This document shows, piece after piece, positions 31,989-57,408 of a DNA stretch of 64,000 nt. Source of the DNA: Tessaracoccus coleopterorum. Its GTDB lineage: Bacteria > Actinomycetota > Actinomycetes > Propionibacteriales > Propionibacteriaceae. The stretch spans positions 3,038,001-3,102,000 of the forward strand of contig NZ_JAANIJ010000001.1 of the NCBI RefSeq assembly GCF_011174705.1. Reading direction: 5' to 3'. Numbering within the stretch: position 1 is the first letter of the stretch; each line of letters begins with the position of its first letter. The notes beneath the pieces were generated by a model. It worked only from the letters and a program-made list of their open reading frames with translations. It was not told where the DNA came from and did not search any database. A program made the translations under genes and the position numbers.

Positions 31989-33898
<1,910 letters not shown>

Positions 33899-33903
33899 AC
33901 GGC

Positions 33904-35156
33904 GTGAACGCACTCCTTGAAGACCTCCAGTGGCGTGGGCTGATCGCCCACTCGACCGATCTTGACGCCCTCGGGCGCACCTGGACGAGGGGTCCGTCAA
34001 GTTCTATGTGGGCTTCGACCCGACGGCGCAGAGCGTCCACACCGGCAACCTCGTCCAGATCCTGCTCGCCAGGCGGCTGCAGGAGGCGGGCCACCAGCCG
34101 TTCCTGCTGGTCGGCGGTGCGACCGGCCTGATCGGCGATCCGAAGGAGTCGGGCGAGCGCGTCATGAACTCCAGGGAACTGGTGCACCAGTGGGTCGACA
34201 AGATCCGCTCGCAGGTCGGCGGCTACGTGTCCTTCGAGGGCGACAACGCCGCCACCATGGTCAACAACTACGACTGGACGTCACAGATCTCGGTCCTCGA
34301 TTTCCTGCGCGATGTCGGCAAGCACTTCCCGGTCAACAGGATGCTGGCCCGCGACGTCGTGGCGCGCCGCCTCGAGGCGGGCATCTCCTACACCGAGTTC
34401 TCCTACGTGCTGCTCCAGTCGATGGACTACCGCGAGCTGAATCGCCGCCACGGCGTGACGATGCAGACCGGCGGCTCCGACCAGTGGGGCAACATCGCGG
34501 CCGGCGTCGAGCTGATCCGCCGCAGCGACCAGCGCAAGGTGCACGCCATGGCGACGCCGCTGCTGACGAAGGCTGACGGCACGAAGTTCGGGAAGACCGA
34601 GTCCGGTACGGTCTGGCTCGACCCGAGCCTCACCTCGCCCTACGCCATGTACCAGTTCTTCCTGAACGCCGAGGACGCGAAGGTCGTCGACTACCTGAAG
34701 GTGTTCTCGTTCCGCGGCCGTGAGGAGATCGAGGCCCTCGAGCAGGCGACCCTGGATGCCCCGTTCAAGCGTGAGGCGCAGCGGGCGTTGGCCGACGACG
34801 TGACCGAACTGGTGCACGGGGCGGCCGAACGCGATGCGGCCGTGGCGGCGGCCGGGGCCCTGTTCGGTCGCGGCGAGCTCGCCGAGCTGAGCGAGCAGAC
34901 GCTCGCGGCCGTGGCGCGTGAGGTCGGCGGTGGCACGTTCGCCGCCGACTCGAGCGTCGTCGACGTCCTGGTTGCCGGCGGCGTCGTCGACTCGAAGGGG
35001 GCGGCACGACGCGCCGTCACCGAGGGTGGCGCCTACCTCAACAACCAGCGGGTCGAGGATCCTGACGCCGTGGTCGGCGCCGAGGATCTCCTGCACGGAC
35101 GCTTCGCGGTCGTGCGGCGTGGACGCAGGACGGTCGGCGTCGCAGAGCGCGCCTGA
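33904..35156 (+). CDS. tyrS: Tyrosine--tRNA ligase (one frameshift)
   Basis: About 418 residues. Class I synthetase: VKFYVGFDPTAQSVHTGNLV (tyrosine site and HIGH-like HTGN), QTGGSDQWGNIAAGVELI, LLTKADGTKFGKTESG (KMSKS-type KFGKT), and a C-terminal S4 RNA-binding domain (VLVAGGVVDSKGAARRAVTE). One base is missing near 33985. The stop is 2 bp from the convergent CapA-like gene. Confidence 0.96.
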
Positions 35157-35158
35157 CG

Positions 35159-36330
35159 TCACCCGCGCTCGGTGAGCCCCTCCACCCGAGGGCGTTCACC
35201 GTGGCGCGCGTGCGGGCGGCCGATGCCCGCAGCTGGGCCTCGATGGGGAGCCGGCCCGCAGCTCGTCCGGGATCAGGTGGACCCGGGAGGGCAACCCTCC
35301 GCGTAGGGGCGTGATCATCGTCGGCGCGTACTCGGCCGCCGTCGCAGCGAAGGTGCCGTCCGGTTTCTCCGTGAACGTCACCTGCGCCATGAAGCCGTCG
35401 TAGGTCAGGGGCTTGGGCGGACCGCTCGCGCCGATCAGGTTGCCGGTGCCGTAGATCACCCACTTGCCGTTGACCCGGTCAACGGGCTGCACCACGTGGG
35501 CGTGCTGCCCGAAGACGAGGTCGACATCGGGGAGGCGGTCACCGCGGCGGCGAAGTCGCGCTGCTGGGCATTCAGACTGCTGGAGTACTCGACACCGGCG
35601 TGCATGTGCACCGCCACGATGTCGGCACCGGCCGCGCGGGCGCGTGCCGCGTCCGCGATGGCGTGATCGGCATCGAGCAGGTTGACCGCCCAGTCCCGCC
35701 CCTTCGGCTTCGGGAGACCGTTGAGCCCGAAGGTCTGGCTGATCACCGCGATCCGCACGCCCTGGTCGGTGGTGAAGATGACGGGGGTCGAGGCCGCCTC
35801 CTCGGAGGCGAAGCTACCGCTGGTGAGGATGCCGTTGGCGTGGTGCACCTCGATGGTCCTCACCAGGCCCTCCCAGCCGGCGTCCATCGTGTGGTTGGAG
35901 GCGGTCGTGCACAGGTCGAAGCCGGTCGCGGCGATGGCGGGCGCGATCTCCTGCGGCACCTGGAACAACGGATAGTTCCGGTACGGGCCGCCCTCCGGTG
36001 CGAACGGCAGCTCCGAGTGGCACACCCCGAGGTCCGCCGCGCTCACGTAGTCGCGGAGTCCCGCCAGCTGGGGAGCGAAGTCCATGTCGCCCTTCCCGTC
36101 GATCTTCGCCGACTGCCACAAGGTGTTGTGCCAGAGCAGGTCACCGCTCACGTTGATGGAGGCGGTACGTGGGACGAACGGCGAGGGTGTGGCGGTGGAC
36201 GTGGGGGACGGCGCCGGCGCAGGGCTCGAGGCGGAGGAGGGAGCCTTCGAGGGCGGGCCGGTCGTCGGGCCGGCACATCCCCGGCGACCAGCGCCAGCAG
36301 GCCCACGCACAGGGGAACGACTCGTCTCAT
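35159..36330 (-). CDS. CapA-family lipoprotein, metallophosphatase-like (frameshifted)
   Basis: About 391 residues after four corrections. RRVVPLCVGLLALVAGGC is a lipoprotein signal (lipobox restored by one G near 36278), followed by a Pro/Ser/Ala/Thr-rich linker. The CapA/PGA_cap domain has SINVSGDLLWHNTLW, DLCTTASNHTMDAGWEG, DIVAVHMHAGVEYSS and FGQHAHVVQPVDRVNGKWV, the His/Asp/Asn metal ligands of the calcineurin-like fold. The family is named for poly-gamma-glutamate synthesis, but isolated copies like this one have no proven role. Confidence 0.85.
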
Positions 36331-36338
36331 GAAAGACA

Positions 36339-36344
36339 ACACTA
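36339..36344 (-). promoter_or_regulatory. -10 hexamer TAGTGT, leaderless CapA-like start
   Basis: Eight bases separate this minus-strand hexamer from ATG 36330. Confidence 0.45.
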
Positions 36345-36414
36345 GAGCGGCACGCGTGAGGGACCCGGTCGTGGCGCGTCGGCCGGGCGATCGCCGAGCG
36401 AGCTGGAGCCGCTT

Positions 36415-36443
36415 TTGCGCGATCGGTGAAGTGTGTGTAATGT
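36415..36443 (+). promoter_or_regulatory. rRNA operon promoter P1
   Basis: TTGCGC and TAATGT with a 17-nt spacer. The start region reads TCTCCGAGCTGCC and can form a GCTGCC...GGCGAGC hairpin, as in the other four copies. Confidence 0.6.
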
Positions 36444-36584
36444 TCTCCGAGCTGCCACGGCGAGCCGGACGAGAGATCGGACGGGCCTGGCGCCACCACC
36501 CATCTCAGAATCACGGACGAGTGTGTGTTCGACACGAACCCACTCAAGGCCCGTGAACGACGAGCATGGCCTGGAACAGCCGAG

Positions 36585-36613
36585 TTGATCGGCAGGGACG
36601 GGTTCGGTAGTGT
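36585..36613 (+). promoter_or_regulatory. rRNA operon promoter P2
   Basis: TTGATC and TAGTGT, 17-nt spacer; followed by TGATCGGGCCGCTTCGGCGGCC, whose GGCCGC-TTCG-GCGGCC part is a perfect tetraloop hairpin. Confidence 0.7.
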
Positions 36614-36672
36614 TGATCGGGCCGCTTCGGCGGCCACCAACAACTCAACAGCGGACGGCCAGATCGGTCGGT

Positions 36673-36702
36673 TTGACAAGCCGAGAACGAACTGAGTACT
36701 GT
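36673..36702 (+). promoter_or_regulatory. rRNA operon promoter P3
   Basis: Consensus TTGACA and TACTGT, 18-nt spacer; downstream TTGGTCAGGTTGCGCC with a GGTTGCGCC/AGCGCC hairpin. Confidence 0.7.
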
Positions 36703-36798
36703 TGGTCAGGTTGCGCCAAGCGCCTCCCCAACAGCGAAACACCTAGTCAACTAGGGTTTCGTAGCTACTCCGGGAAGTCTCAGCCACGTCGAAACGAT

Positions 36799-37211: not shown

Positions 37212-42152
<4,941 letters not shown>

Positions 42153-42187
42153 TACTACAAAGATGCTACGCGTCCACTGTGAAGTTC
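42153..42187 (+). repeat. 3' arm of the 23S processing stalk
   Basis: Complement of 39032-39065, beginning TACTACAAAGATGCT right after 23S. Confidence 0.75.
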
Positions 42188-42261
42188 CCGAGGTACGGTC
42201 GGGAGCACGCTTCATAATTGAAGAATGATTGAAGTTTGTGCCCTGACGCTATCTCTATAGT

Positions 42262-42380
42262 GTTTCGGTGGCCATAGCGAGAGGGAAACACCCGGTCCCA
42301 TCCCGAACCCGGAAGTTAAGCCTCTCAGCGCCGATGGTACTGCAGCGGGGACGCTGTGGGAGACTAGGACGCCGCCGGAC
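42262..42380 (+). rRNA. rrf: 5S ribosomal RNA
   Basis: About 119 nt. The conserved core CACCCGGTCCCATCCCGAAC and GGAAGTTAAGCC, with GTTTCGGTGGCC and GCCGCCGGAC as the pairing ends. Third gene of the operon, 110 nt after 23S. Confidence 0.95.
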
Positions 42381-42388
42381 TTCTTTTG

Positions 42389-42416
42389 AAAACCCCCGAA
42401 CTTGTTCGGGGGTTTT
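42389..42416 (+). terminator. Intrinsic terminator of the rRNA operon
   Basis: AAAACCCCCGAAC-TT-GTTCGGGGGTTTT: a 13-bp perfect hairpin ending in a T-run, 8 nt after 5S. Confidence 0.93.
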
Positions 42417-42573
42417 CGTATTTTCAGGGGCTTTTCTTCCCTTTCGAGACGGTGCTGCGGTGTGGATGTCAACCATGGGGCGCCGCGGAGAGCCTGGGGC
42501 ATCGGCGGCGGGCCGGCGCCGGGGGCCCTGCTGGGTTAGGTGAATGAGGCACGTGGCTGGGATGATGGGGTCT

Positions 42574-44876
42574 ATGTCTACTGAGAATCGGTCGTCTGGC
42601 TCCTACGAGGGTGGAGAGCGTCCCGGCGTGATGGTGGCGACAACCGTCGCGGTGACGACAAGCGTGGCAGTGCCGGGAGCGAGCGCCGCTCCTACGGCCC
42701 GCGCAACGATGACCGGAAGCCCTACAACAGGGACAGCCGTGATGACCGCGGTGACAGGAAGCCGTACAACAAGGACGGCCGGGACGACCGCGGCGGTTAC
42801 CAGCGTCGCGACGACGACCGGAAGCCCTACAACCGGGACGACCGCGGTGGTTACCAGCGTCGCGATGACGACAGGAAGCCGTACAACAGGGACGACCGTG
42901 GGGATCGGAAGCCGTACAACCGGGACGACCGCGGTGGTTATCAGCGTCGCGACGACGACCGGAAGCCCTACAACCGGGACGACCGCGGTGGTTACCAGCG
43001 TCGTGACGACGACAGGAAGCCGTACAACAGGGACGACCGTGGGGATCGGAAGCCGTACAACCGCGACGACCGCGGTGGTTACCAGCGTCGTGACGACGAC
43101 CGGAAGCCCTACAACAGGGATGACCGCGGCGGATATCAGCGTCGGGACGACGACAGGAAGCCGTACAACCGCGACGACCGCGGTGGTTATCAGCGTCGTG
43201 ACGACGACCGGAAGCCCTACAACAGGGATGACCGCGGCGGATATCAGCGTCGCGACGACGACCGGAAGCCCTATAGCAAGGACCGCCGGGACGACCGCGG
43301 CGGATATCAGCGTCGCGACGACGACAGGAAGCCGTACAACCGCGACGACCGCGGCGGTTATCAGCGTCGCGATGACGACAGGAAGCCCTATAACAAGGAC
43401 GACCGCGGTGGTTACCAGCGTCGCGACGACGACAGGAAGCCCTACAACAAGGACCGCCGGGACGACCGCGGTGGTTACCAGCGTCGCGACGACGACAGGA
43501 AGCCCTACAACAGGGATGACCGCGGGGACCGCGGCGGGTACCAGCGCCGCGACGACGACAGGAAGCCGTACAACCGCGACGATCGCGGCGGTTATCAGCG
43601 TCGCGACGACGACAGGAAGCCCTACAACAGGGATGACCGCGGGGACCGCGGCGGGTACCAGCGTCGCGACGACGACAGGAAGCCGTACAACCGCGACGAT
43701 CGCGGCGGTTATCAGCGTCGCGATGACGACCGGAAGCCCTACAACAAGGACCGCCGGGACGACCGTGGCGGCTATCAGGGCCGCCGGGACGACCGCGGCG
43801 GCTACCAGGGCCGCGACGACGACCGCAGGTCGTTCGATCGCGAGGATCGCGGGCCACGCCGTGAGGACGAGTTGGAGAGGCGCTCACATCCCGGCACCGA
43901 GGCCCGGGCCGATGAACCGGAGACCCCAGTCGACTTCCCGCAGCACGAACTGCCCTTCGGTGTGCGTGCCGAGATGAAGAGCCTGCCCAAGGACCTGGCC
44001 ACGATCGTCGGCGCCCACATCTGGGCCGCAGGTCAGCTGATCGACGTCGACCCGGAGCTCGCCTTCCGGCACGCCGAGGCAGCACGCCGACGCGCCGGTC
44101 GCCTGCCGATCGTGCGCGAGGCAGCCGCCGAGACGGCCTACGCCGCCGGTGAGTACGCCGTTGCCCTGCGCGAGTTCCGGGCCATCCGTCGGATGAGCGG
44201 CGGCGACTCGTTGCTGCCGGTGATCGCCGACTGTGAGCGGGCACTGGGCCGCCACCGGGAGGCCCTTGCGGTCCTCGCCGAGCTGGACCCGAACACCCGC
44301 GACATCGACCTCCGCATCGAATGCCTCCTGGTTGAGGCCGGCATCCGCAACGACCTCGGTCAGCGTTCCGAGTCCGTCCGCCTGCTGAAGGCCGCGATCA
44401 GCCGTCGTATCGGCTCTCCGGCCGCCCAGGCGCGCCTGCGCTACGCCTACGCAGAGCTGCTCGAGACGGAGGGCGATACCGAGGGGGCCCGTGAGTGGTT
44501 CACGTCAGCCGCCGCGCTCGACCGGAATGCCGATCTCGACATCGCAGACCGCATTGCCGAGATCGATGGCGTTGTGCTGCCCGATTCCTTCTCCGACTTC
44601 GATGATGACGACGATGAGGACGAGGTCGACGACGAGGACGAGGCCGACGATGAGGACGAGGCCGACGACGAGGACGAGGTCGACGACGACGACCAGGTTG
44701 AGGACGACGACGAGTCGGACGAGCCCGATGAGCCTGAGGACGACCAGGAGCTGCCGAGGATGCTTCCGAGGGGCTATCGAGTCGGGCGAGGACATCGACA
44801 CGGATGACGACGAGGACGCCGCACCGGTCGACGCGCAGAAGTCCGTGATCGCGGAGACGGACGGGGAGACAAGTGA
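42574..44876 (+). CDS. Repeat-rich protein with TPR-like core and acidic tail (frameshifted)
   Basis: About 768 residues in the corrected frame. ATG 42574 (MSTENRSSGSYEGGERPG) is followed by one missing base near 42620; after it the frame is open to 44807. Layout: a 45-residue lead; about residues 45-420 with some 20 copies of RKPYNRDDRGGYQRRDDD; a linker; about residues 470-670 a TPR-like helical core (AAETAYAAGEYAVALREFRA, AALDRNADLDIADRIAEIDG); then a long Asp/Glu run. Lost bases near 44755, 44770 and 44866 delay a stop that, when repaired, overlaps the next GTG. Position matches Rv1691 of M. tuberculosis, a TPR protein of unknown function. Confidence 0.7.
42705..43840 (+). repeat. About 20 tandem repeats within the TPR gene
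   Basis: Mostly 54-nt units (18 codons) coding RKPYNRDDRGGYQRRDDD, with variant units of 11 and 21 codons. The copies are near-identical, with synonymous changes such as AAGCCC/AAGCCG and AACAGG/AACCGC, so this is protein-level conservation and not a fresh DNA duplication. Copy number may be mis-assembled. Confidence 0.85.
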
Positions 44877-45865
44877 CGGGTGCGCTGGCGCAGAGCTACG
44901 ATTCGGCCCTGTTCGATCTGGACGGCGTGATCTACCTCGGTCCACAGGCGGTCGACGGGATCCCGGAGGCGCTGGAGGAGCTCCGCTCCCGTGGAACGCG
45001 CCTCGGGTTCGTCACCAACAACGCCGCCCGCACCCCGGCCACCGTCGCGGAACACCTGACGGAGCTCGGCATCACCGCAGTGGAGGCCGACGTGGTGAAC
45101 TCCACCATGGCGACGCTGCGCATGCTTGGTGACGACCTCGGTGCCGACGCACGCGTGCTCGCGGTGGGTACCGATGCGCTGAGCCAGCAGCTGACCGGCG
45201 CAGGACTCACCCTGGTGCACTCCCTCGATGACAAGCCCACTGTCGTGGTGCAGGGCTACAGTCCCGACATCGCGTGGCAGAGGCTGGAGGAGGCCGCGCT
45301 GGCCGTCCAGCGGGGTGCGACCTGGTACGCCACCAACCCCGACCTGACGCGGCCCTCGGACCGCGGCATCGTGCCGGGGCTCGGGACCCAGATCGCCGTG
45401 ATCCGGGCATGCGTCGATGTTGAACCGCAGATCGCGGGCAAGCCCTACCGGCCGCTGCTGGACGAGACTGTCCTGCGCATGCAGGCCGAGCGTCCGATCT
45501 TCGTCGGCGACCGGACGGACACCGACGTCCTCGGCGCGAACAACGTCGGTATGGACTCGCTGTTCGTGTTCACCGGGGCCCACGGGAAGCAGGACCTGGC
45601 TGACGCGGCACCGGCCTACCGACCGACGTACATCGGCTACGACGCCGCCGCGCTCCTCGAGCCGCCGCGCGTCGCCGAGTTCCACACCGACCGCTATGTC
45701 TGCGGCTACCAGGAGGTCGACCTGACCGACTCGGCCGCCTTCCTGTCGACGCGACCGGTGACCCGTGACGAGCAGCTCGACGCGCTCTGGGCCGGGCTCC
45801 AGGCCGCCTGGCGCTTCGAGCTCGACATCAGCGCGGTGCTGAACTCGCTGGACACCCTGCGGTGA
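44873..45865 (+). CDS. HAD-IIA family phosphatase (NagD-like)
   Basis: 330 residues, intact. Motif I SALFDLDGVIYLGPQAV with the nucleophile and acid Asp, motif II RLGFVTNNAARTPA, KPYRPLLDETV with the motif III Lys, and motif IV IFVGDRTDTDVLGA. C2-capped HAD phosphatase of the NagD/PGP group acting on small phosphoesters. Equivalent position to Rv1692 of M. tuberculosis, described as a glycerol-3-phosphate phosphatase. Coupled to the genes on both sides by 4-nt overlaps. Confidence 0.92.
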   Translation: MTGALAQSYDSALFDLDGVIYLGPQAVDGIPEALEELRSRGTRLGFVTNNAARTPATVAEHLTELGITAVEADVVNSTMATLRMLGDDLGADARVLAVGTDALSQQLTGAGLTLVHSLDDKPTVVVQGYSPDIAWQRLEEAALAVQRGATWYATNPDLTRPSDRGIVPGLGTQIAVIRACVDVEPQIAGKPYRPLLDETVLRMQAERPIFVGDRTDTDVLGANNVGMDSLFVFTGAHGKQDLADAAPAYRPTYIGYDAAALLEPPRVAEFHTDRYVCGYQEVDLTDSAAFLSTRPVTRDEQLDALWAGLQAAWRFELDISAVLNSLDTLR

Positions 45866-46075
45866 CGGCCCGACGCCCCGCTCCGCGGCCCGGGCGACCT
45901 GCGCAGGCAGGAGCTCGTGGCGGAGCTGGTGGCGAGCCTCGACGGCGTCGAGGAACTTCCCCTTCCCGGGCAGACGGCGCGCCTCACGGAGGCGCAGCGG
46001 ATCCTCGCAGGCGTGCTGAACAACGATCCGATGGTCACCCAGCTGGGCCTCCCGGGTGTGACCGGTGAGGCTTGA
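45862..46075 (+). CDS. Small conserved protein between HAD and tlyA (one frameshift)
   Basis: About 71 residues from GTG 45862 in the HAD stop. After one base is restored near 45890 it reads DLRRQELVAELVASLDGVEE and LTEAQRILAGVLNNDPMVTQ, one short helical domain, ending at TGA 46073-46075, 11 nt inside tlyA. The place corresponds to Rv1693 of M. tuberculosis. Function unknown. Confidence 0.65.
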
Positions 46076-46781
46076 TCTCGCCCTCGTCGACCGCGGTATC
46101 GCCCGGTCGCGCAACCACGCGGCGGGGTTGATCGGCGAGGGTCGGGTCGCCGTCGACGGCGTCCGCGTGACCAAGCCGTCGCAGCAGGTGGGCGACGACG
46201 CCGTTCTCACCGCGGACGTGGACCGGTGGGTCTCCCGCGCCGCCCACAAGCTGCTCGGAGCGCTCGACGACACCGGGCTGCTCGTCGCCGGACGCGTCCT
46301 CGACGCCGGCGCCTCCACGGGCGGCTTCACCCAGGTGTGCCTCGAGCGGGGAGCCGAGGTCGTCTACGCCGTCGACGTCGGCCACGGTCAGCTCGTCGAC
46401 GAACTCCGCAACGACCCCCGCGTCCGCGTGTCCGAGGGCCTGAACCTGCGTGACCTCTCGCTCGACGATCTGGACGCCCTCCCGGTCGACCTGATCGTCG
46501 GCGATGTCTCCTTCATCTCCCTGACGCTGATCCTCCCGCAACTGCTCGGCGTCCTCGCCGCAGGTGGGGAAGCGTTGCTGCTCGTCAAGCCCCAGTTCGA
46601 GGTGGGAAGGGAGCGGCTCGGCAGTGGCGGAGTGGTGCGCGACCCGGTGCTGCGCCGGGCGGCCGTCGACGGCGTCGTGGCCGCCGCGGAGGGCCTCGGC
46701 TGGCGCGAGGCGTGGCGCGGCGAGAGCAGGCTGCCCGGCTCCGCGGGCAACGTGGAGTTCTTTGTCAGGCTTACTCGGTAG
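46065..46781 (+). CDS. tlyA: TlyA family rRNA 2'-O-methyltransferase
   Basis: 238 residues, intact. S4 RNA-binding domain at the start (RLDLALVDRGIARSRNHAAG) and an FtsJ-like methyltransferase domain with the SAM motif RVLDAGASTGGFTQVCLERG, then DLIVGDVSFISLTLILP and LLVKPQFEVGRE. TlyA methylates C1409 of 16S and C1920 of 23S, which is needed for capreomycin sensitivity; some members methylate only 23S. Start GTG 46065. Confidence 0.95.
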   Translation: MRLDLALVDRGIARSRNHAAGLIGEGRVAVDGVRVTKPSQQVGDDAVLTADVDRWVSRAAHKLLGALDDTGLLVAGRVLDAGASTGGFTQVCLERGAEVVYAVDVGHGQLVDELRNDPRVRVSEGLNLRDLSLDDLDALPVDLIVGDVSFISLTLILPQLLGVLAAGGEALLLVKPQFEVGRERLGSGGVVRDPVLRRAAVDGVVAAAEGLGWREAWRGESRLPGSAGNVEFFVRLTR

Positions 46782-46790: not shown

Positions 46791-47687
46791 GTGAAACAGC
46801 GAACCGTGGCCGTTCTGGTGCATCCGGAACGCGAAGAGGCCATCGTGCAGGCTGTCCGCTTCATGGAGGCCCTCGCGCAGATGGGCTTCGATTTCCTCGC
46901 GTTCGAGAGCGACCTCGAGCGCCTCGCCGAGCGCGTCCCCACTGCCCACGTTGCGGGCCTCGACCACCGCTCCGCCGAGATCGCGGTCATCTTCGGCGGT
47001 GACGGCACGATCCTGCGCGCAGCGGAGTGGGCCCTGCCGCTCGGCGTGCCGCTGCTCGGTGTGAACCTCGGCCACGTGGGATTCCTCGCCGAGATGGAAC
47101 CCTCCGACCTCGAGGAACTCCCGTCGGTGGTGGCGGAGCGCCGCTACGACGTGGAGGAACGCACCACCCTCAAGGTCGAGGTGAGGGACCAGGACGGCGC
47201 GCTCACATGGGCCTCTCCTGCGGTCAACGAGGTGTCGCTCGAGAAGCTGGCGCGCGAGCGGATGCTGACTGTCCTGGTGAGCGTCGATGATCGCCCCCTC
47301 TCCCGATGGGGCTGCGACGGCGTCCTCGTCTCGACCCCGACCGGCTCCACCGCCTACGGCTTCTCCGCGGGCGGCCCGGTGGTCTGGCCCGACGTGAAGG
47401 CCATCCTGCTCGTGCCGCTTGCGGCGCACGCCCTCTTCAACCGCCCCATGGTGCTCAGCCCGTCGTCGAAGGTCACCTTCGACCTGCCCGAGGACGCCGC
47501 AGCGGGCGGCATCCTGTGGTGCGACGGCCGCCGCAGCCACGAGATCGTCTTCGGCGAGTCGGTGACCGTCACGTCGAACGACCAGAGGGTCAAGATCGCC
47601 CGCCTCGGCGAGCAGCCGTTCACCACACGGCTCGTGAAGAAGTTCGCCCTTCCGGTCGAGGGTTGGCGCAAGAGGAGCGAACACTGA
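46791..47687 (+). CDS. nadK: NAD kinase
   Basis: 298 residues, intact. The GGDGT motif is in IAVIFGGDGTILRAAEW, the NE motif in PAVNEVSLEKLARERM, and GVLVSTPTGSTAYGFSAGGP is the conserved glycine-rich region. Phosphorylates NAD to NADP. Stands in the tlyA-nadK-recN order typical of actinobacteria; the stop overlaps the recN ATG by one base. Confidence 0.96.
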   Translation: MKQRTVAVLVHPEREEAIVQAVRFMEALAQMGFDFLAFESDLERLAERVPTAHVAGLDHRSAEIAVIFGGDGTILRAAEWALPLGVPLLGVNLGHVGFLAEMEPSDLEELPSVVAERRYDVEERTTLKVEVRDQDGALTWASPAVNEVSLEKLARERMLTVLVSVDDRPLSRWGCDGVLVSTPTGSTAYGFSAGGPVVWPDVKAILLVPLAAHALFNRPMVLSPSSKVTFDLPEDAAAGGILWCDGRRSHEIVFGESVTVTSNDQRVKIARLGEQPFTTRLVKKFALPVEGWRKRSEH

Positions 47688-49358
47688 TGCTGACGACGCT
47701 GCGGCTCACGGCGTTCGGCGTCGTCGAGGAGGCCGAGCTCGAACTCGGCGCCGGGCTCACCGCACTGACCGGCGAGACGGGCGCAGGCAAGACCATGATC
47801 GTCTCCGGCCTCGGCCATCTCCTGGGCGCGCGTGCCGACGCGGGTGTCGTCAGACGGGGCTCGGACAAGGCCGTGGTGGAGGGCCGCTGGGAGTTGCCCA
47901 CCGAGCTCGCCGACCGCGTCACCGGGCTCGGCGGCACGGTGGAGGAGGGCGAGGTGGTGGCGCTGCGCCAGGTCGCGGCCACGGGTCGCTCCCGCGCCGT
48001 TGTCGGAGGGGCGGGCGTGCCGGTCTCCACCCTCGGAGACCTCCTCAGCGAACTCGCCACCATCCACGGCCAGTCGGGCCAGATCCGCCTCTCCACACAG
48101 GAGCGGCAGCGCGAACTGCTGGACGCGAAGGCCGCCCCGCAGAACTGCCGCGCTACCTCGCCGATTTTGCGGAGCGCCGCGCCGCGGCAGCGGAGCTCGC
48201 GCAGCTCGAGGCGGAGGCGCAGGCCAGGGCCCGCGAGGCAGACATGCTCCGCTACGGCCTCGGCGAGATCGAGGCCGTGGCGCCGCAGCCGGGCGAGGAC
48301 GAGGCGCTCGCCTCCGAGCAGTCCAGGCTGATGGATCTCGACGAGCTGCGCCGCCTGGCGGGAGGGGCGCACGAGGCGCTGAGTGGCAGCGAGACGGACT
48401 ACGACGCGCCGAGCGTGGTGTCGCTCGTCGGCTCGACCCGCAAGCTCCTGAACGACCTCGCCCACCGCGACCCCGCAGCCAACGACCTCGCCTCGCGTGC
48501 CACCGAACTCGGCATGCTCGCCACCGACCTCGCCGCGGAGGTCGCCGGCTACGTGGACGATCTCGTCGCCGACCCGCTGCGGCTCGAGGCGGTGGGTGAG
48601 CGCCGCCAGCAACTCGCCGGCCTGACCCGCAAGTACGGCCCCACCATCGACGAGGTCCTCGCCTGGGCCGAGTCATCGGCGTCGCGTCTCGCCACCCTCG
48701 TCGGAAGCGATGAACGGATCGCGGGGCTGCGTGGGCGGATCGCCGAGCTCGACGCCTCCCTCGCCTCCGACGCGGCCGCCATCTCCGCTGCCCGTCACCG
48801 GGCCGCCGACGAGTTGGCCCGCGCCGTGAAGGTCGAGCTGGCTGCCCTCGCCATGCCGCACGCCGAGCTCCATTTCGACGTCACTGACGCGCCGCTCGGC
48901 CCCATGGCGCCGACCGGATCGACCTGCTCTTCGCCGCGAATCCCGGCTCGCAGCCCGCCCCGCTCGGCAGGGTCGCCTCCGGCGGTGAGCTCTCCCGCGT
49001 CCGGCTCGCGCTCGAGGTCGTCCTCGCAGAGGGGGAACGGGGGCACACCTTCGTGTTCGACGAGGTCGATGCGGGTGTCGGCGGCGCCGTCGGATTGGAG
49101 ATCGGCCGCCGCCTCCAGCGCCTGGCGACCACCAGCCAGGTGATCGTCGTCACGCACCTGGCCCAGGTCGCCGCGTTCGCCGACGCACACTTCGTCGTCG
49201 CAAAGGCCAGCGACGGGCACGTCACCACATCCGGGGTGCGCAGGCTCACCGACGGGGAGCGGGGCGTGGAGCTGGCCCGCATGATGGGCGGGAGCACCGA
49301 TTCGAGGGCCGGGCTCGAACACGCAGCGGAGTTGCTGGCCGCGGCTCGCCGATCGTGA
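47687..49358 (+). CDS. recN: DNA repair protein RecN (frameshifted)
   Basis: About 558 residues after corrections near 48140 and 48910. SMC-like ATPase: Walker A in [16 protein letters not shown], a long coiled-coil middle, the signature [18 protein letters not shown] and Walker B in [15 protein letters not shown], then [16 protein letters not shown]. Acts in double-strand break repair. ATG 47687 shares its A with the nadK stop. Confidence 0.95.
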
Positions 49359-49405: not shown

Positions 49406-51035
<1,630 letters not shown>

Positions 51036-51065
51036 GCCGGGCGGCCCGACCGAAGGAGCGACCCG

Positions 51066-51687
51066 ATGCCTGCCGACCGACCGATGAGCTGGCCCGTGCT
51101 GCGGCGGGAGGTGCTGGGCGTCGGCCACGTGTCGTCGTTCGTGAACGACACGATCGCAACGCCGTCCGGCGACGAGATCCGGCGCCAGTACCTCACCCAC
51201 CCCGGCGCCGTCGCGGTGGTCGCCTGGCGGGAGGACACCGACGACATCGCGGTGCTGCGCCAGTACCGGCACCCGGTGCGCGCCGAACTCGTCGAGATCC
51301 CGGCCGGCCTCCTCGACCTCGCCGACGAGCCCTACGTCGACGCGGCCCGCCGCGAACTCGCCGAGGAGGTCGAACTCGCGGCCGCCCGCTGGGACGTCCT
51401 GGTCGACATCTGCACCACCCCGGGCCTGTGAGGAGACACTTCGGATCTTCCTCGCCCGCGAACTGAGCGCCACCGAGCGACCCGAGGGCTTCGTCCTCGA
51501 GGGCGAGGAGGCCGAGATGACGTGGGGCTGGGTGCCCCGGACTGACCTGGTCGAGTCGGTCCTCGCGGGAGAGGTGGCTTCCCCGTCGTTGTGCACCGGC
51601 ATCCTCGCCCTCGAGACGGCGCGGCTGACCGGCCGCCTCGACGGCCTGCGCCCCGCCGACGCGCCGTGGCCGATCCGCGGGCGGTGA
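51066..51687 (+). CDS. NUDIX hydrolase, ADP-ribose pyrophosphatase-like (one frameshift)
   Basis: About 207 residues. The Nudix box reads [24 protein letters not shown], preceded by [17 protein letters not shown] as in ADP-ribose pyrophosphatases. One missing base near 51427 splits off the C-terminus ([20 protein letters not shown]). Same position as Rv1700. CGAAGGAGCGACC is a good ribosome-binding site. The stop overlaps the xerD GTG. Confidence 0.9.
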
Positions 51688-56681: not shown

Positions 56682-57408
56682 AGACGTCGAGGGCATTCGG
56701 CTGCAGAAGGTGCTCGCGGCCGCGGGCATCGCGTCGCGCCGCGCCAGCGAGATCATGATCGAGGAGGGCAGGGTCGAGGTCAACGGCAAGGTCGTCACCG
56801 AGCAGGGGAGGCGGGTCAACCCGGACACGGACCACATCCGCGTCGACGGTGCCCGCATCCCCCGCCCCGCCGCCACATGTACCTCGTGCTGAACAAGCCC
56901 CGCGGTGTCGTGTCCACCATGGACGACCCTGAGGGCCGCCCGACCCTGGCCGACTACCTGCCCCGCACGAAGGAGAGGCTGTTCCACGTCGGACGCCTCG
57001 ACACGGAGACCGAGGGCTCATCATCCTCACCAACGACGGCGAGTTCGCCCACCGTCTGGCCCACCCGAGCTACGAGGTGCCGAAGACCTACCATGTGCAG
57101 GCCGCGGGAGCCATGGAAAACCGCACCCTGAAGCGGCTGGAGAAGGGCGTCACGCTGGAAGACGGCGCAGTGAAGCCGGACAAGGTCAAGCTCATCTCAC
57201 GCAGTGGCAACAAGACGCTGCTGGAGATCACGCTCCACGAGGGCCGCAACCGCATCGTGCGCAGGATGCTGGAAGCCGTCGGCCACCCCGTCGACCGGCT
57301 GGCACGCACCAGGATCGGCCCCGTCCGGCTGGGTGTACTGCCGGTGGGGAGACCCGTGAGCTCACCCGCGAGGAGCTGGGGTCGCTGCTCGACCTCATCC
57401 GGATGTGA
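56674..57408 (+). CDS. rluB: Ribosomal large subunit pseudouridine synthase B (frameshifted)
   Basis: About 246 residues after three corrections (about 56865, 57018 and 57348). An S4 domain (RLQKVLAAAGIASRRASEIM) and an RsuA/RluB catalytic core with the nucleophile Asp in VGRLDTETEGLIILTNDGE and LHEGRNRIVRRMLEAVGHPV. Makes pseudouridine 2605 (E. coli numbering) in 23S. In many relatives cmk and der follow; here an FKBP gene does. Confidence 0.93.

Follow-up and report, generated by a model that had tools for sequence, protein, structure and literature searches.

An arginine-rich repeat tail on a class-wide actinobacterial TPR protein encoded behind the rRNA operon of Tessaracoccus coleopterorum

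The closest described counterparts of the gene considered here are mycobacterial. Rv1691 has its place in the published gene order lprJ-Rv1691-Rv1692-Rv1693-tlyA-ppnK-recN (PMC3072309), and its orthologue in M. smegmatis, MSMEG_3754, which is annotated as a TPR protein, was found together with RNA polymerase that had been cross-linked with formaldehyde (PMC7092591). No DNA was recovered with the tagged protein, and the authors of the latter report consider that the DNA was perhaps too little to be seen or that MSMEG_3754 is simply associated with RNA. The protein also appears in a table of the ClpC1 interactome (PMC10433963), and therefore, the pull-downs may be unspecific. With Rv1691 and MSMEG_3754 the gene described below has the gene order and the TPR annotation in common, and loci of the family f7 match both its core profile and the order. 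We take f7 to be the Mycobacteriaceae, and it is by gene order and by this family that Rv1691 is equated with the gene of the window, as we call the whole stretch of 64,000 nucleotides that was analysed. The N-terminal tails differ, however, with an estimated 40 to 78 aa in f7 loci compared to about 440 aa in the window.

Low-complexity tails of the RG/RGG or Arg/Tyr type bind RNA in eukaryotic proteins of the FUS, nucleolin, and GAR1 class. The tail of the window protein is likewise Arg-rich, repetitive, and Gly/Tyr-containing, a likeness of composition only, but it is a polyampholyte, is carried by a TPR core, and belongs to a bacterium. RNA polymerase clusters of the E. coli type have been reviewed as the bacterial counterpart of the nucleolus (PMC9312465). 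The scaffold proposed below has with them the conceptual likeness that sites of rRNA transcription are seen as assemblies, but the passages of that review on E. coli-type clusters mention no actinobacterial scaffold of this kind. The TPR family appears to be known as the uncharacterised Rv1691/MSMEG_3754, and its Arg-rich tail and its linkage to rRNA genes appear to be undescribed; a search of titles and the starts of abstracts, with most subscription journals outside its reach, returned no publication on the rRNA-operon linkage, and three repeat strings, looked for in the literature, matched an unrelated paper only.

The window comes from the assembly G000 of Tessaracoccus coleopterorum (3.59 Mb, two contigs, completeness 60.9%) and contains the following features.

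34008..35156, plus strand: TyrS-type tRNA synthetase (Pfam), upstream flank of the order tyrS-rrn-TPR-HAD-tlyA-nadK
37212..38726, plus strand: 16S rRNA (Rfam RF00177), in the operon that directly precedes the TPR gene
39070..42152, plus strand: 23S rRNA (Rfam RF02541)
42264..42380, plus strand: 5S rRNA (Rfam RF00001), with which the operon ends
42387..42418, plus strand: terminator-like hairpin of 14 pairs in the gap between 5S rRNA and TPR gene
42574..44876, plus strand: whole TPR-family gene with the extent that relatives suggest, from ATG 42574 to a stop that overlaps the HAD start
42574..43904, plus strand: N-terminal Arg-rich low-complexity tail, presumed disordered, net charge about +28
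42714..43784, plus strand: tandem array of 20 RKPY-anchored units, main unit RKPYNRDDRGGYQRRDDD
43905..44600, plus strand: TPR solenoid core with 12 predicted helices (Pfam, AlphaFold, Foldseek)
44595..44876, plus strand: poly-D/E acidic tail at the C terminus; a frame break lies near its end
44873..45865, plus strand: HAD-family hydrolase (Pfam)
46065..46781, plus strand: methyltransferase with S4 and FtsJ domains (Pfam), presumably TlyA
46791..47687, plus strand: ORF within the conserved block, presumably NadK-like

The rRNA operon is complete in the window (37212-42380 by Rfam), and the order TPR-HAD-tlyA-nadK-recN is present as judged by Pfam and ORFs, with recN recognized by eye. A preliminary description of this DNA had named the rRNA operon and tlyA as neighbours of the gene, both of which are borne out by the Rfam operon and the S4-FtsJ gene at 46065; the TPR-HAD-tlyA-nadK order that it gave was found here and in other loci. 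A PGA_cap-type protein is encoded on the minus strand at 35459-36742, with tyrS on one side and the rRNA operon on the other.

A single frame, 42627-44807, encodes the charged repeats, the TPR core, and the acidic tail, the last of which had been noted before and was read again in the corrected frame. The 20 RKPY anchors span 42714 to 43731 and the array reaches a tandem-repeat score of up to 930, but the units are 11, 14, 18, or 21 aa long, so that the earlier count of about 20 near-identical copies is right for the anchor and not for the full unit. Ten of the eleven 18-aa units are exactly RKPYNRDDRGGYQRRDDD. At the DNA level, 13 of their 54 columns vary, ten of them at codon position 3, two at position 1 (both synonymous Arg codons), and one at position 2. 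Between these units, only 10 of 278 codon differences in the repeat frame change the residue, compared to 242/296, 291/293, 242/278, 130/293, and 291/296 in the five other frames. A lag-based codon test gave 22/88 for the true frame of the window and 52/92 to 90/96 for the others. The same test was applied to those of the 65 loci described below that have a tail of at least 150 aa, with minima of 50% for self-identity and 10 for codon changes, which five other species passed; pooled, they gave 64/279 in the true frame, 89/282 in the best other frame, and 266/279, 270/293, 271/282, and 274/293 in the remaining ones. The true frame was the lowest in each of the five, all of which have different repeat units.

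These tests bear on whether the repeat is translated as read. It might instead be a DNA repeat, or belong to an antisense gene (a minus-strand ORF of 591 aa) or to a 477-aa ORF in the frame of the ATG, and the long ORFs in other frames as well as the position of ATG 42574 outside the repeat frame in this assembly would fit. Against this, the changes are mostly synonymous in the repeat frame alone, five other species behave likewise, and tail and core share one open frame in relatives, where open frames as long as 986 aa contain the core. It would be most surprising if the repeat were untranslated, and non-coding and other-frame readings were rejected on the codon-level tests. The gene is coding and selected at the protein level, and the preliminary description was right to see coding in the corrected frame and to read synonymous variation as protein-level selection (10/278 against 130/293 to 291/293). 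Arg-rich composition alone is weak evidence, because GC-rich genes that are read out of frame yield Arg-rich strings too; when 40 stretches of 20 kb were scanned in all six frames, Arg-rich stretches turned up 94 times, of which 59 lay outside the N-terminal zone of the TPR protein. A search of the own genome for a second copy of the repeat found none at E ≤ 1, all three matches being the same gene, a search that low-complexity relatives may escape.

ATG 42574 (MSTENRSSGSYEGGERP) and the repeats, which start at 42627, are in different frames, and in relatives both parts are joined in one open frame, for example in L003 (MANEDRSSGSHEGEQRRRRDGGG...). At the other end, the repeat/TPR frame stops at 44807 in the window, compared to a HAD start at 44873-44876. 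All eight relatives inspected here, seven from the genus and one from the same family, have the end of the TPR gene overlapping the beginning of the HAD gene, and therefore, a minimum of one more break is expected in the acidic tail. The gene would thus have at least two frame breaks, in the interval 42574-42627 and in the last part of the acidic tail, and the one frameshift counted earlier is an undercount. Sequencing error, already suspected as the cause, fits well: the simple reading is that the breaks are assembly errors, because other genes are split, the completeness is 60.9%, and the gene is unbroken in relatives. A programmed frameshift is not favoured, given the single frame in relatives and the splits in argH, recN, pyrG, an RsuA/RluB-type gene, and the helicase. 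The DEAD-box helicase of the same assembly is split into three frames. Within the window, recN (47684-49358), pyrG (49569-51466), and argH (about 32172-33870), names that we assigned by eye from the ORFs, appear split between frames, and the RsuA/RluB-type gene (about 56880-57277) is in two pieces; the assembly is rich in frame errors.

The core was matched by Pfam TPR_19 (E 9e-7), and an AlphaFold prediction on 43 aligned cores returned an all-helical solenoid with a mean pLDDT of 93 and a pTM of 0.86, in agreement with the TPR-like helical core described earlier. Foldseek against the PDB yielded at least 15 TPR matches with E ≤ 0.001 (best 2.9e-4) among the 50 matches listed, and these matches show the generic TPR fold only and include no RNA-specific structure. 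A PPR RNA-binding solenoid was considered upon a profile match to the designer PPR protein dPPR10 (2.6e-9) and was set aside, as both Pfam and Foldseek give TPR. No NCBIfam family scored above its cut-off for the window core. The core is present in 60/60 genomes of the genus and order (the own genome included), in 187 of the 197 class genomes, with a single match in all but six of the 187, and in 63 of 148 phylum genomes; the gene was absent from G280, G306, and G377, single-contig genomes of the class sample that stand outside the 61-genome set used below. Among the Actinomycetes sampled, the TPR core is near-universal, and the gene of the window is the Tessaracoccus/Arachnia-group member of a class-wide actinobacterial TPR family. 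Members of this family combine a TPR solenoid with a low-complexity, Arg-rich tail at the N terminus, to which many lineages add an acidic tail at the C terminus.

Over 65 loci the estimated length of the N-terminal tail ranges from 40 to 763 aa (about 440 aa in the window), and its net charge is positive in 65/65, from +6 to +66 with a median of +23. In 57 of the 65, the tail exceeds the core in R/(R+K); in f67, a family whose core GC is about 50%, the values are 0.92 in the tail versus 0.61 in the core, and the ratio is not raised in f7 (0.96 against 0.97) and f74 (0.87 against 0.90). The tail of the window protein has R and D/E in about equal parts (0.27 each), which makes it a polyampholyte. 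By composition, Arg/Gly-rich low-complexity repeats are present, whose units vary by species while their composition persists among the loci listed. In a mixed set of 110 related loci there are exceptions, namely, two Actinophytocola loci (L079 and L093) with net negative tails of 900 aa or more and one truncated locus at zero tail charge. Length and unit of the tail change, and its chemistry is retained, with a net positive charge, few aliphatic residues, and, in most loci, a preference for Arg over Lys. A repeat domain of this kind had been thought unusual among the equivalent proteins, a view that found no support, an Arg-rich low-complexity N-terminus being the norm in the loci examined; a check for its absence from close relatives found the domain there. 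A long tail is not essential to the function of the core, because f7 manages with 40 to 78 aa. The acidic C-terminal tail is found in some families and missing from others. The lengths of the two tails are modestly linked over 14 family medians (rho 0.62, p 0.019). Charge compensation between them was weak over the 110 related loci (rho −0.21, p 0.027) and not significant over the 14 family medians (rho −0.45, p 0.10), and this idea was set aside.

A chemistry that outlives its units raises the question of whether bulk properties are all that is maintained. In that case, the tail would be an entropic, hydrating device for solubility or osmoprotection, expanded by recombination and selected for disorder and charge balance only, on a core unrelated to RNA whose place next to the rRNA operon was inherited. 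The change of units between species under a persistent composition is what such a tail should show; net charge per residue falls with tail length (rho −0.80, p 0.0006, 14 family medians), as expected of a near-neutral polyampholyte, and the generic TPR fold among the Foldseek matches listed would suit it as well. On the other hand, Arg is preferred over Lys even at about 50% GC, for which solubility has no need, and aromatics increase with tail length (rho 0.75, p 0.002, 14 family medians). We consider a purely entropic tail unlikely, though well worth reckoning with, and the two following sets of observations also speak against it.

The first is the genomic position. The upstream stretch was searched for 23S rRNA in a set of 61 genomes from 14 families, which comprises every gene-bearing single-contig genome of the genus/order and class samples. 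In 52 of them, counted without regard to kinship, the estimated gene start is on the same strand and at most 700 bp from the 3′ end of the 23S gene, distances that are approximate, because a composition rule served to estimate where the genes start. The operon lies 0.8 to 4.3 kb upstream in seven more (G015, G020, G033, G360, G262, G285, and G283), and in the fetched upstream stretch of two (G279 and G184) no 23S gene was found. Two draft genomes outside this count, G019 and G378, both have the adjacency. The position after the 5S gene was checked with Rfam on 13 stretches. In G279 (L181/L269), 5S and 16S matches lie upstream with no detectable 23S, perhaps a decayed rRNA operon.

For 40 of the 61 genomes, stretches of 20 kb were taken (14 kb upstream, 6 kb downstream), 39 of which were readable (G266 had no TPR match). 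Over the 14 kb upstream, 23S was found in 37/39 and TyrS in 27/39, and all 12 stretches without a TyrS match retain 23S. The rRNA adjacency thus outlasts the proximity to TyrS, contrary to what a merely inherited neighbourhood under an entropic tail leads one to expect. Nevertheless, the adjacency could be a retained ancestral gene order, a remnant of an old tyrS-rrn-TPR-HAD-tlyA block. Within 6 kb downstream, the 39 stretches gave HAD in 33, TlyA in 26, and NadK in 22; the TlyA and NadK counts are lower bounds, because only 6 kb were searched, and some HAD matches are on the other strand. The claim that adjacency to rRNA outlasts adjacency to tlyA was dropped, given the 6 kb searched downstream versus 14 kb upstream. 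A terminator-like hairpin after the 5S gene was found in 43 of the 57 loci scanned, compared to about two in shuffles, and therefore, co-transcription with the rRNA is probably not the link; no sigma-70-like promoter match was seen in 42300-42700 of the window. Two genomes hold the block twice. In G037 (L054/L055), the 23S/5S-TPR block is duplicated over 3544 bp at 100% identity, with different sequence downstream, and the duplicate ends within the last TPR codons; a similar pair in G052 (L059/L189) aligns over 3592 columns at 98.4%. In these duplicated blocks, the TPR protein gene travels with the rRNA genes.

The second set of observations concerns a DEAD-box helicase. In seven of the nine same-genus genomes examined (of 35), this helicase has an N-terminal tail of RDDR-type repeats, the unit of which differs between species (L291, L292, L293, and L318-L321), and Pfam confirmed the DEAD and Helicase_C domains for three of these. 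A search with Helicase_C, for which 30 of the 53 listed places were examined as loci, found in each of three same-genus genomes one DEAD-box helicase bearing a long tail of this type. The helicase tail is non-repetitive and R/D-rich in G005 and K/P-rich in G001. Outside the genus, the helicase of G322, which we take to be a Streptomyces, has RDDRGG repeats at its C terminus, and RDDR repeats were absent from the helicases picked as putative counterparts in G333, G124, G316, and G300. Helicase and TPR protein of the same genomes thus have a similar repeat vocabulary, but the helicase has a catalytic core, and the units of the two proteins differ, by eye, in G028, G003, and G020. That such repeats sit on an RNA helicase counts against a tail that serves solubility only. 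The tail lengths of the two proteins are correlated over nine same-genus genomes (rho 0.71, p 0.03), a value not used as evidence, because three helicase tails are cut by the edge of the locus and the species are related. Pseudouridine synthases were considered as further carriers of the tail and set aside, as the same-genus RluB-type loci with a correctly picked ORF, L221, L223, and L225, have none, the automatic choice of ORF having been wrong for several others; the RluB-type locus of G322 has an R/G-rich N terminus.

Taken together, adjacency, helicase repeats, the preference for Arg over Lys, and the RNA polymerase pull-down give circumstantial support to the ribosome link that the preliminary description had offered as speculation. 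We tentatively favour, at somewhat less than an even chance, an RNP scaffold or chaperone linked to rRNA. Such a protein would work in rRNA and ribosome biogenesis. The TPR core might dock on another protein, for which RNA polymerase and an assembly factor are candidates, and the arginine/aromatic polyampholyte tail might make weak multivalent contacts with nascent rRNA; the acidic tail could compete with RNA for this Arg-rich tail. In long-tailed lineages, the similar tail of the helicase may allow helicase and TPR protein to share an RNP assembly.

Protein binding is common among TPR folds, and it is imaginable that the protein is a general protein-protein hub or proteostasis adaptor, whose core brings clients to RNA polymerase, ClpC1, and others, with the tail as a flexible tether. 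The presence of MSMEG_3754 in both the RNA polymerase pull-down (PMC7092591) and the ClpC1 interactome (PMC10433963) is in line with a hub, but the portions of these two reports that concern the protein show no function for it. Furthermore, a hub leaves the adjacency to the rRNA operon and the Arg-specific tail unexplained, and we regard it as improbable. A more far-reaching version of the rRNA-linked scaffold, to which we likewise give a low probability, is that of a nucleolus-like compartment beside the rRNA genes, in which the core would sit on the transcription machinery and the tail would condense nascent rRNA. The DEAD-box helicase would enter by way of its similar tail, the acidic tail would tune the assembly, and lineages might set its strength by gain and loss of tandem repeats, with tails that range from about 40 to more than 700 aa.

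In any case, a near-universal actinobacterial protein, usually encoded right behind the rRNA operon, has seemingly not been studied as such. If the link to rRNA is functional, it would be a missing ribosome-assembly or nascent-rRNA factor of a class that includes Streptomyces and the mycobacteria. The natural series of tail lengths, from about 40 to 763 aa, allows one to ask whether bulk chemistry or sequence is selected in bacterial low-complexity tails. In family f74, outside the order of the window (L243 and L245), units of the KPYQKRDGDR- and GGYQRRDGDRPS types are similar to the units of the window, a likeness that suggests convergence or a vocabulary in common.
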